DNA of 64,000 bases from positions 1-64,000 of the forward strand of contig VXMM01000055.1 of the NCBI GenBank assembly GCA_009841105.1, read 5' to 3'. Made by a program: the position numbers and the translations under genes. Positions within the stretch are counted from its first letter, which is position 1; each line of letters begins with the position of its first letter. The stretch is from Acidimicrobiia bacterium. Lineage in GTDB: Bacteria > Actinomycetota > Acidimicrobiia > Spongiisociales > Spongiisociaceae. This document shows positions 13,857 to 41,693 of the stretch, piece by piece. Under the pieces are notes generated by a model. It did no database searches. It saw only the letters and a program-made list of their open reading frames with translations, and was not told the origin of the DNA.

Positions 13857-13939
13857 CGCTTATCAAGAGTGGTGGAGGGACAGGCCCTGTGAAGCCACGG
13901 CAACCGATCCGTTCGGTGCCAATGCCTGATCGATGAGAC
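13857..13939 (+). ncRNA. SAM-I (S-box) riboswitch
   Basis: The order of conserved S-box elements is present: CTTATCAAGAG at 13859, GGTGGAGGGACAGGCCC, TGAAGCC, CGGCAACC, GGTGCCAATGCCTG and the closing GATGAG at 13932-13937 that pairs with CTTATC to form P1. These match the SAM-I consensus closely. Downstream, CTCCGC and GCGGAG can pair just before the AAAGGAG of the leader ORF, which suggests control of translation. High SAM would be expected to lower expression. Confidence 0.9.
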
Positions 13940-34995: not shown

Positions 34996-35290
34996 CTTCT
35001 CCACAAGAAGAACCGCTCGGCACTCCCGTGCGGGACCGCACGGTACCAACAGGAATACCCCGACCCGAATGAGCGGGCATCCGATCACCCTCGCGGCCGG
35101 ACTCGGTTCGTCCCTGGCCCACCCTGCCGTCGGGAAGCGAACGCCGCATCTCCAATCCGTAACGGTTCGTGAAGGCCGTCATGGCCCGATAGCCTTCGCC
35201 GCCGGCGAGCGCTACGGTCCGGTATCAATGGAGCCTGACGCACGGCGAAGCGCTCAACCGGCCGGGCGAATCAGCTCTCGCGGAGCAAGC

Positions 35291-36445
35291 ATGATCATCC
35301 TCGCAAACGGTAAGACGAACCAGGTCGCCCGGCGGACCGACTCCGATGGGGCGTTATGGGTGCGGATGGACGAACTCCCTAACGCCACCGGCTGGCAGAT
35401 GAAGCCGGAGGGCGCCTGCCTGGGCGATCTTTGCGTGCCGCTGCCGGCGAACAAGCGTGAGGAGTGGATTGCCGACGCCGACGACTGGGTCTGGTTCTGC
35501 TACTCGGAATTCGCGGACATGATGGGCCAGAAATACGTGCGCGACGGCGACGTGTGGAGCCTCGGCCCGGTGCCCGCTGTCCGGAGCGTCGGGCTGGAGA
35601 GCGCCATCGCCCCCGACTTCGAGGTGACCGAGCGGAACGGCGATACGTTGAGGCTCTCGGACCTGCGGGGCCGCAAGGTGGTGCTGTTCACCTGGTCATC
35701 GTGGTGAGGGTGCCGTTTCAGCCTGCCGGTCTGGCAGGAGCTATACGAGTCCATCGGCCCGGACCGGTTCGAGTTGATCAGCGTGGCGCAGGACTCGGGA
35801 GGTCCCCAAGCTGTGGGCAAGTGGTTTGACCGGGCCTCGCCGACATACCGATGCGTCATCGATCCGACCCACCAGATCAGTTCGCTGTTCGGCTGGGTAA
35901 GCGTGCCGTCCGCCGTGTGGATCGACGAGGAGGGGCGCATCGTTCGCAGCAACGAAGGGACATACCCGGCTCCGATGACCATCGGGTTCGGCCTCGGCAA
36001 GGTTCGCGTCGGCGACCATGCGTTTGCCCGGGCGACACGCGACTGGATCGAGCGGGGAGCCGAGAGCGAGCACGTCTGGTCTCGCAGCGAGCTGGCCGAG
36101 CGGCTCAAGCCCGTAGACGACGACACGCGCCTGGCAGAAGCGACGTTCAGGCTTGCGTTGCACTTCGAGGCGGTGGGCGACAGCGAGCGTGCGTGGCGCC
36201 ACTTCACTGCGACGCAGCAATTGGCACCCGACAACTGGAACTACCTGCGGCAGGGCTGGACCCACAAGGGGACTATCTACGCCTCCTTGAAGGTGCTGGC
36301 GCGAACGAGCTACCTGCGTAAGAACACCGACACGAGCTACTACGACCCCATGGGGTTGCCGGGCGAGAACAATCGCCGGTACATCGAACCCGACTGGCTG
36401 TGGACACCCGCCGTCCGCCGGATCAAGCAACTGCTCCGCCGGTAG
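35291..36445 (+). CDS. Thioredoxin-like selenoprotein with in-frame UGA (ResA-like WAxxUGC type)
   Basis: The reading frame of 385 codons runs from ATG 35291 (GGAG upstream) to TAG 36443-36445, interrupted once by TGA 35705-35707 at codon 139. The TGA falls exactly in the redox motif, giving TWSSWUGCRFSLPVWQ, where Cys-containing relatives have WCGC. Residues 1-110 are an N-terminal domain with GWQMKPEGACLGDLCVPL. Residues 115-235 are a TlpA/AhpC-like redoxin fold that continues in the same frame on both sides of the TGA. Residues 255-300 look TPR-like. A SECIS-like hairpin lies 14 bases after the UGA. The gene stands beside cation-efflux and ArsM genes, so thiol/selenol metal chemistry is plausible. 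A pseudogene is the only alternative. Confidence 0.82.
35705..35738 (+). promoter_or_regulatory. UGA selenocysteine codon and bacterial SECIS hairpin
   Basis: TGA at 35705-35707 is followed by CCTGCC (35722-35727), a loop GGTCT (35728-35732) and GGCAGG (35733-35738), a perfect six-pair stem. The loop repeats the GGUCU apical loop of the known E. coli fdhF SECIS. The UGA-to-loop distance is 20 bases, against 18 in fdhF. SelB would bind here to deliver Sec-tRNA. Confidence 0.8.
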
Positions 36446-36620: not shown

Positions 36621-37412
36621 ATGCTTGACGTCGAAGGGCGGACGCTGTCACATGGCCCGGCCCTGCTAATCTCCGGGCTTGGTCGATCATGGAACGGGGC
36701 CGGCTTGATCTGTGAGCAGGCGGACAACTGTCGAATAACGTCGCTCCGGCGCGCGTTGCGGCTCGAGCGGTTGACCGTGGGCTGGAACGCCGTAGAGGGG
36801 GTCATCGCCGTGGCAGCAGCCCTGGCAGCCGGCAGCGTGGCGCTTCTCGGGTTCGGGATCGACAGCTTCGTCGAGACCATATCGGGCGTCGTGATCCTCT
36901 GGCGCATCGGCGCGGAGAGGCGCGCCACGAGTGCGGAGCGCATCAACCTGGTGGAGGGCCTAGCCCGAAGAGGGGTGGCCCTCAGCATGTGGCTGCTGGC
37001 CACCTACGTGGCCGTGGACGCCAGCCTTGCCCTAGTGAGCGGTGAGCGGCCCTCCGCCTCGGCAGTTGGTGTGGCCTTACTGGTGCTGTCGATAGCCGTC
37101 ATGAAGTGGTTAGCCAACGCCAAACGATCCGTGGCGCTCGCCCTGCGCAGCCATGCCATGGAGGCCGACGCCGCCCAGACCGACTTCTGCTGGAAGCTCT
37201 CGGTCGTCGCACTGGTCGGGCTGTTAGCCAACGCCGTACTCGGTTGGTGGTGGGCCGATCCCGTAGCGGCCTTGGGGGTGGCCGCCCTGATAGCCATCGA
37301 GGGCCGGCAAGTCTGGAAGATCGGCGCCTCGTGCTGCGAGATCACCGACCTGTCGTTTCAAAGCAACTGTCGGCCGCTGCGAGACTGGAGTTGCGCCACC
37401 GCGTGCTGTTGA
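36621..37412 (+). CDS. Cation efflux (CDF)-like membrane protein
   Basis: This is a protein of up to 263 residues with about five to six membrane helices. LRLERLTVGWNAVEGVIAVA begins the conserved part, and GFGIDSFVETISGVVILWR and SHAMEADAAQTDFCWKLS are where CDF proteins place metal-binding Asp and His residues. The last 35 residues are Cys-rich (GASCCEITD, then SCATACC), suggesting a soft-metal binding tail. The start is uncertain: no ribosome site precedes ATG 36621, and homology starts near residue 45. It lies between the selenoprotein and ArsM genes, suiting metal(loid) export. Confidence 0.72.
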   Translation: MLDVEGRTLSHGPALLISGLGRSWNGAGLICEQADNCRITSLRRALRLERLTVGWNAVEGVIAVAAALAAGSVALLGFGIDSFVETISGVVILWRIGAERRATSAERINLVEGLARRGVALSMWLLATYVAVDASLALVSGERPSASAVGVALLVLSIAVMKWLANAKRSVALALRSHAMEADAAQTDFCWKLSVVALVGLLANAVLGWWWADPVAALGVAALIAIEGRQVWKIGASCCEITDLSFQSNCRPLRDWSCATACC

Positions 37413-37508: not shown

Positions 37509-38252
37509 TCAGGGACGGCGCGCCCGGATTATGGCTGAGTGGACCCCAACCACGGCTAGGGAGTTGGTGGTGTCCGCCATCTGGTGGGTGGGAGTGATCT
37601 CAACGTCGACCAGGCCTGCCGACTCCAGACCCTGCCGGTACTCGGTGAAGGAAGGCGCCCCGGCGATGCAGCCGACCCATGAGCCCCGCTCCTTACGCTG
37701 ACCGGGAGTCAGGGCATCGTCGGCCACCACATCGGTCACCCCAACCCGCCCGCCGGGGCGGAGCACCCGGGCGATCTCCGCGAAGACGGCCCTCTTATCT
37801 TCCGACAGGTTGATCACGCAGTTGGAAATGACCACATCCACTGAGCCGTCGGGCAGCGGGATCTGCTCCATGTAACCCTTGACGAAGCTGACGTTACTCA
37901 TCCCGGCCTCGGCCGCGTTGGCCCGCGCCAACGCGAGCATCTCATCGGTCATGTCCAATCCGTAGGCGAATCCGGTCGGACCGACCCGGCGAGCCGACAG
38001 CAGCACGTCGATCCCCCCGCCCGAGCCGAGGTCCAGCACGATCTCTCCGGGGCGTAACTCGGCCACGGCAACCGGGTTACCGCAACCGAGGGATCCTTCG
38101 GCAGCGGCCGCCGGAAGCTCGTCGATCTCGGAGGGTTCGTAGAGGCTGGACGCGAGCTGGCACTCCGGCTCGGTCTCCGCCACCCGGGTCATGGTGGCCC
38201 GGGCGGCGTTGGCGTAGCTCTGCCGCACCTGCTCGCGGATGCTGTCGGTCAT
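37509..38252 (-). CDS. arsM: Arsenite methyltransferase
   Basis: This 247-residue SAM-dependent enzyme has motif I in [20 protein letters not shown]. It keeps the cysteines characteristic of ArsM in [26 protein letters not shown] and [10 protein letters not shown], which bind arsenite thiolates. An earlier Cys is in [10 protein letters not shown]. It converts As(III) to methylated forms, as is known for the family. The start is ATG 38252, with GGAGG upstream on the minus strand. It is divergent from a TetR-type regulator, which could control it. Confidence 0.9.
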
Positions 38253-41019: not shown

Positions 41020-41439
41020 TTAGTCAGACCACGGGTTGACGACGCCGACACCGCATCCCTCGAAGCCATCGGTGTTCCGGGTGGCCACCGAGGCACCTAC
41101 CGAACGTGCGATCGCGGCTATCTGGCAGTCAGCCCGGCTGATGGGACGGCCCGCGGCGCGTCTTGACGCCGCTATCAAAGCGTAGGCGCGAGCGGCATCA
41201 CTTCCGAAAGCCAGAATACGCCCTGCAAAGTCCTCTTTAAGGAGCCCGTCTACTGCAGCTCGGAGCTTCCTCCGCCGAGACCCTTCTGGGAGAACTTCAA
41301 TGCCGTACCGTAACTCGGCCTCGCTGATGCTCGACAGATAGAGACTAAGAGCGGCCTGTCGACGAACCCAGTCAACCACCGAAGCAGCAGGATGCGGGCG
41401 GATCAACTCCGAAACTACGTTGGTATCCAGGACGATCAT
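41020..41439 (-). CDS. vapC: PIN-domain toxin, VapC/FitB-like
   Basis: This 139-residue ribonuclease-type toxin begins MIVLDTNVVSELIRPHP, with the first catalytic Asp. The middle acidic residues are in SISEAELRYGIEVL, and the third cluster in ISRADCQIAAIARS and ATRNTDGFEG. These are the standard PIN acidic positions. ATG 41439 overlaps the antitoxin stop as ATGA, so both are co-translated. It probably cleaves tRNA or other RNA when free of its antitoxin. Confidence 0.9.
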   Translation of the reverse strand: MIVLDTNVVSELIRPHPAASVVDWVRRQAALSLYLSSISEAELRYGIEVLPEGSRRRKLRAAVDGLLKEDFAGRILAFGSDAARAYALIAASRRAAGRPISRADCQIAAIARSVGASVATRNTDGFEGCGVGVVNPWSD

Positions 41440-41693
41440 CGACCGCCGTCGTTGAAGTCGGGTGGCTCCCGCATGGGTTCGCGCGGCGGCAACTCCAATT
41501 CAACACCACCCAGGGGCGCAAACCGGCTACGGATGGCCCGGACAAGGTCTTCGCCCGTCGTAGGCTGCGCGTACAGGGCTGCTTTCAGAATGTCCCGAGC
41601 CTCCTGTTCCATGGATCTACCGTTCTCAGCCGCCCGGATGCGCAGACGGCGTTTCAGTCCTTCTTCCAGGTTCCGCACGGTGATACTCGCCAT
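41436..41693 (-). CDS. vapB: Ribbon-helix-helix antitoxin, FitA/VapB-like
   Basis: This 85-residue protein has an RHH DNA-binding N-terminus, MASITVRNLEEGLKRRLRIR, followed by NGRSMEQEARDILKAAL, which is characteristic of FitA-type antitoxins. The proline-rich C-terminus (ELPPREPMREPPDF) would wrap the toxin. The ribosome site AGGAGCAGG is just upstream. The pair probably represses its own promoter. Confidence 0.88.
   Translation of the reverse strand: MASITVRNLEEGLKRRLRIRAAENGRSMEQEARDILKAALYAQPTTGEDLVRAIRSRFAPLGGVELELPPREPMREPPDFNDGGR

Follow-up and report, generated by a model that had tools for sequence, protein, structure and literature searches.

A redoxin-like gene from an acidimicrobial genome with an in-frame UGA that is probably read as selenocysteine and is followed by a SECIS-type hairpin

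The window analyzed here, a stretch of 64,000 nucleotides from an Acidimicrobiia draft genome, contains on its forward strand a reading frame that opens with an ATG at 35291, closes with a TAG at 36443-36445 and is interrupted by a single TGA at 35705-35707, which corresponds to codon 139. With this codon read as selenocysteine (Sec), the coding sequence (35291-36445, + strand) specifies a protein of 384 amino acids in which Sec139 is the first residue of a UGC redox motif within WSSWUGC. A GGAG located 5 nt before the ATG (35282-35285, + strand) is a possible ribosome-binding site. An earlier note on this DNA had described one in-frame TGA within an otherwise continuous frame, the motif WSSWUGC, a redoxin fold that continues past the TGA and a gene split in two by automatic callers. 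Re-reading the frame gave the same TGA and motif, the TGA falls inside one redoxin domain at the catalytic residue, ordinary ORF listing divides the gene into 35069-35707 and 35774-36445, and all coordinates in that note hold. The TGA is shared by all 13 close relatives, which are 78-89% identical over their full length, and the start of the protein, MIILANGKT, is largely conserved within this 14-member close subfamily, with M1, I2, I3, L4, N6 and G7 invariant. The host of the gene is an uncultured actinobacterium that is probably marine and often sponge-associated.

The redoxin domain (AhpC-TSA/ResA-like; residues 106-224, 35606-35962, + strand) matched PF00578 with an E value of 1.3e-15, and its best Foldseek match was ResA (4nmu, TM 0.78 by target length). 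Within this domain lie Cys141 (35711-35713, + strand), the partner two residues past Sec, and Pro206 (35906-35908, + strand), which sits at the cis-proline position of the thioredoxin fold (VPS/NVP) and would adopt the cis form. Preceding it is an N-terminal domain (residues 1-104, 35291-35602, + strand; pLDDT 88 in the AlphaFold2 model) that contains Cys43 and Cys48, which are invariant across U and C forms. This domain yielded no accepted Pfam match (isolated hits, E 0.03-0.18), no PDB sequence match and no credible match among PDB folds (best E 1.4), and with its invariant C-x4-C it looks like an undescribed domain. The C-terminal portion features a helical TPR-like region (residues 277-345, 36119-36325, + strand), for which 22 of 33 relatives gave matches to TPR models and the AlphaFold2 model shows helices (overall mean pLDDT 84, pTM 0.83). 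Across 33 aligned members, C43, C48, U/C139, C141 and P206 are all invariant. By inspection, no hydrophobic leader or signal peptide was evident at the conserved start, which suggests that the protein is cytosolic, unlike ResA/TlpA.

No conserved operon surrounds the gene, and the upstream genes are common only to the 4-6 closest relatives. Because only a few close relatives share these neighbors, genomic context gives neither a substrate nor an operon-based function. Downstream lie a cation-efflux gene (36621-37412) and a methyltransferase-domain gene (37509-38252) that by eye resembles arsenite methyltransferases, and neither is conserved near the selenoprotein gene in relatives. Elsewhere, the window contains a predicted SAM (S-box) riboswitch (13857-13939, + strand, 68 bits) and, at 41020-41693, a PIN-domain gene with a small upstream ORF, which are likely a toxin-antitoxin pair.

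We compared the residue at position 139 across related genes. A search of 296 genomes of the class with the NCBIfam model NF041054 returned approximately 90 long matches, most of which contain exactly one TGA. In the alignment of related genes, the codon for position 139 was TGA in 128 rows and Cys in 16 rows, and wherever the motif could be found in a row, this column held U or C. More than 110 homologs carry exactly the same TGA, with 117 distinct Sec sequences that come from independently assembled genomes of several phyla. When genome contigs were scanned, the Sec form turned up in Gammaproteobacteria, Acidobacteria, Planctomycetes, Hydrogenedentota, a Rhodothermaeota bin and others, and the Cys form in Saprospiraceae. 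In one member (L034:1501-2556, minus strand), the motif reads WASWUHC, a replacement of its Gly by His that was observed in no other. On a quick tree of 144 rows (128 U, 16 C) built with residue 139 masked, on which long-branch rows are less surely placed, U and C were exchanged at least six times on supported branches. When a single draft genome shows one premature stop, the cause is often a nonsense mutation or a sequencing error in a Cys gene undergoing decay, but the recurrence of this TGA across so many independently assembled sequences, together with conservation of the downstream frame, leaves that explanation next to no probability.

The source genome, a 3.05-Mb draft rated 97.5% complete, encodes the components for Sec insertion. 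On contig 13, selA (435 bits) directly adjoins selB (320 bits), and the selB match takes in the C-terminal part of SelB; a tRNA-Sec with anticodon UCA (77 bits) is on contig 14. The selD gene on contig 50 (L087:1490-2520) contains its own in-frame TGA, within PGGGUASKLGADEL, and is itself a predicted selenoprotein gene. Across the class, 75 of the 78 genomes that carry the TGA form had a detected selA, compared with 1 of the 12 that carry the Cys form alone (Fisher p 1e-10), a value that overstates independence in that the genomes are related, although the direction is consistent over many families. Three drafts with the TGA form had no detected selA (G290, which is rated 96% complete, G188 and G174), which may reflect missing contigs or real loss. 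The sole Cys-form genome with selA, G162, carries it on contig 418 with a score of 603 bits, far above the others, and contamination or transfer is possible.

These data also bear on whether the UGA is instead decoded by a suppressor or near-cognate tRNA that inserts Trp or Cys, or serves as a true stop between two separate genes, as the two ORFs given by ordinary callers might suggest. A true stop would cut a single redoxin domain at its catalytic residue, the genome has Sec machinery, which co-occurs with the TGA form from genome to genome, and a bacterial SECIS-type hairpin after the codon has been selected, all of which argue that such readings are highly improbable. The earlier note had proposed looking for selA, selB, selD and tRNA-Sec and aligning the gene with Cys homologs; all four components are present, homologs have Sec or Cys at exactly the column of codon 139, and the selenocysteine reading was thus not refuted. 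Its view that stop, motif and hairpin coincide beyond chance is likewise borne out by the TGA in 117 distinct homologous sequences and by the fixed distance of the hairpin.

The candidate SECIS element (35722-35738, + strand) has the form CCTGCC-GGTCT-GGCAGG, and its six-pair stem (35722-35727/35733-35738) and loop distance of 20 bases from the UGA are as first described. The stem starts 14 nt after the TGA, and the loop, which starts 20 nt after it, contains a closing pair between G35728 and C35731, an apical GU (35729-35730) and an unpaired U35732. The 14-nt distance to the stem is the same in all Sec forms. The inner four pairs and the closing pair (loop positions 1 and 4) are present in 115 of 117 distinct Sec sequences but in only 4 of 16 Cys sequences (p 4e-12), which means that the hairpin is mostly lost in Cys forms. 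The outer two stem pairs are missing from many gammaproteobacterial members.

The closing pair links two synonymous third-codon positions, such that CCC occurs with GUG/GGG, CCG with GUC/GAC and CCA with GGU/GUU. Of the 117 distinct sequences, 116 have a Watson-Crick pair here, compared with 52 expected from shuffles (maximum 70), and L027 is the one in which the pair is broken. On the tree, the type of closing pair has changed about 17 times among C-G, G-C and A-U. Codon choice was evaluated against a background of the rest of the same genes: at position +6, CTG accounts for 55 of 59 Leu codons (background 0.37) and CTC never occurs (background 0.41), and the Gly codon of the loop is GGG or GGT and never GGC (background 0.56). 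Compensatory changes in the stem were found in L043, L077, L083 and L119. When residue and stem were compared on the tree by an independent-pairs test, every informative pair pointed the same way, with too few pairs for significance. Relative to shuffles, the folding energy of the 61-nt stretch was no better (z 0.62) and that of the 23-nt core was modestly better (z -1.97); because the energy is not significant for the 61-nt region, it is not used as proof, which is instead comparative.

The lack of significance in the folding z-score would also fit a hairpin that is merely a by-product of the conserved D-L-P-x-W-Q protein sequence in a GC-rich gene, as would the W and Q codons, which supply part of the 3' arm, and the similar stem retained in some Cys forms (L072, L073). 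However, covariation at two synonymous third positions and codon usage that differs from that of the remaining gene indicate that protein constraint alone is insufficient, and the compensatory stem changes and the loss of the stem in most Cys forms further argue against a by-product, which we consider very improbable. Taken together, we conclude from these comparisons that the hairpin is under selection at the RNA level.

From the Sec genes, the aligned homologs and the selection acting on the hairpin, we infer that UGA 35705 is read as Sec139 via the SECIS hairpin, and we assign this reading a probability of roughly 0.95. In the proposed mechanism, SelA and SelD would charge tRNA-Sec(UCA), and SelB would bind the hairpin 14 nt after UGA 35705 and bring tRNA-Sec to the ribosome, which would place Sec at residue 139. 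Located at the start of the active-site helix in the ResA-type redoxin domain, Sec139 would act as a nucleophile toward a peroxide or a disulfide, after which, judging by the chemistry of comparable motifs, Cys141 would resolve Sec139 by forming a Sec-Cys bridge inside UGC. Electrons might plausibly be relayed by Cys43 and Cys48 in the N-terminal domain, a guess from the invariance of this pair and the least certain step. We regard this enzymatic part, which comprises nucleophilic Sec139, resolution by Cys141 and relay by Cys43/Cys48, as about an even proposition.

The selenoprotein might instead function as a structural or regulatory redox sensor, with its N-terminal Cys pair and partner binding through the TPR-like region, rather than as a turnover enzyme. 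The TPR-like region, the unmatched N-terminal domain and the lack of a conserved operon are consistent with such a role. However, the redoxin active site is fully conserved and retention of Sec usually marks catalysis, which makes a sensor unlikely, though not implausible, in our judgment. As for the enzyme, we tentatively suggest a three-part cytosolic selenoenzyme, in which the N-terminal C-x4-C domain would pass electrons to the UGC center and the TPR-like arm would pick the partner. This arrangement is a possibility that we consider less likely than not, and if true, it would represent a new redox relay that occurs in several phyla under partial or missing annotation.

The locus is significant as a confirmed gene that ordinary ORF calling cuts at its active site. 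The repeated exchange of Sec and Cys, which tracks selA, makes the family well suited as a natural set in which to study what Sec offers beyond Cys, and the covariation at third positions offers a clean view of a bacterial SECIS, for which a literature search found no published experimental test in the group of the host. With this gene, a selenoprotein family known from ocean metagenomes also gains a divergent branch, and the curated NF041054 model falls short of the clade to which it belongs, which spans Acidimicrobiia, Gammaproteobacteria, Acidobacteria and others.

The published model of the bacterial SECIS specifies G at the first two loop positions, an N1-N2 closing pair and a spacing of 16-37 nt (PMC13188914). 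The hairpin agrees with this model in its 6-bp stem, its G at loop positions 1-2 and its loop 20 nt from the UGA, and because the model already includes the closing pair, the element is of a known class (PMC13188914). The E. coli fdhF SECIS likewise forms a hairpin soon after its UGA and shares the GGUCU string, as the earlier note had pointed out in equating that string with the fdhF loop. However, the fdhF loop itself is GGUC and the U that follows is paired, whereas U35732 is unpaired above a six-pair stem, and GGUCU begins 18 nt after the UGA in fdhF rather than 20 nt.

ResA has a CxxC active site and is membrane-anchored outside the cytosol. The ResA/TlpA thiol-disulfide oxidoreductases share the AhpC-TSA/ResA fold and are the best structure and sequence matches for the middle domain, but the window protein has UGC, with the partner Cys at +2 rather than +3, and extra domains on both sides. 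Compared by description, the 'Prx-like (UGC-containing)' selenoproteins reported in 2008 from the Global Ocean Sampling survey also combine a PF00578/TlpA-type domain with a UGC motif (PMC2398784), and a 'UGC-containing TlpA disulfide reductase family protein' is listed in a 2026 review (PMC13188914). WAxxUGC as a text string had no match in the literature search, and plasmid records contained only generic redoxins of under 60% identity. The ResA-like WAxxUGC family that the earlier note mentioned does exist, as NF041054 (WAxxUGC_long, ResA-like WAxxUGC motif-containing protein), which resembles the window protein in its N-terminal Cys-pair region, UGC redoxin domain and C-terminal helices, with Sec at the same place and an alignment that covers model positions 8-322. 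The window protein differs in having WSSW in place of WASW; close relatives L049-L052 have WASWUGC, and WSSWUGC also occurs above the NF041054 cut-off (L025). However, the window protein scores 267.3 bits, under the cut-off of 300, as do most of the pan-phylum relatives tested, and on the tree it groups with Gammaproteobacteria, Acidobacteria and others in a clade apart from that family, which suggests a sister branch rather than a curated member. Taken together, UGC redoxin selenoproteins are already known, and by score and tree position the window protein belongs to a sister clade that lies outside the curated model.
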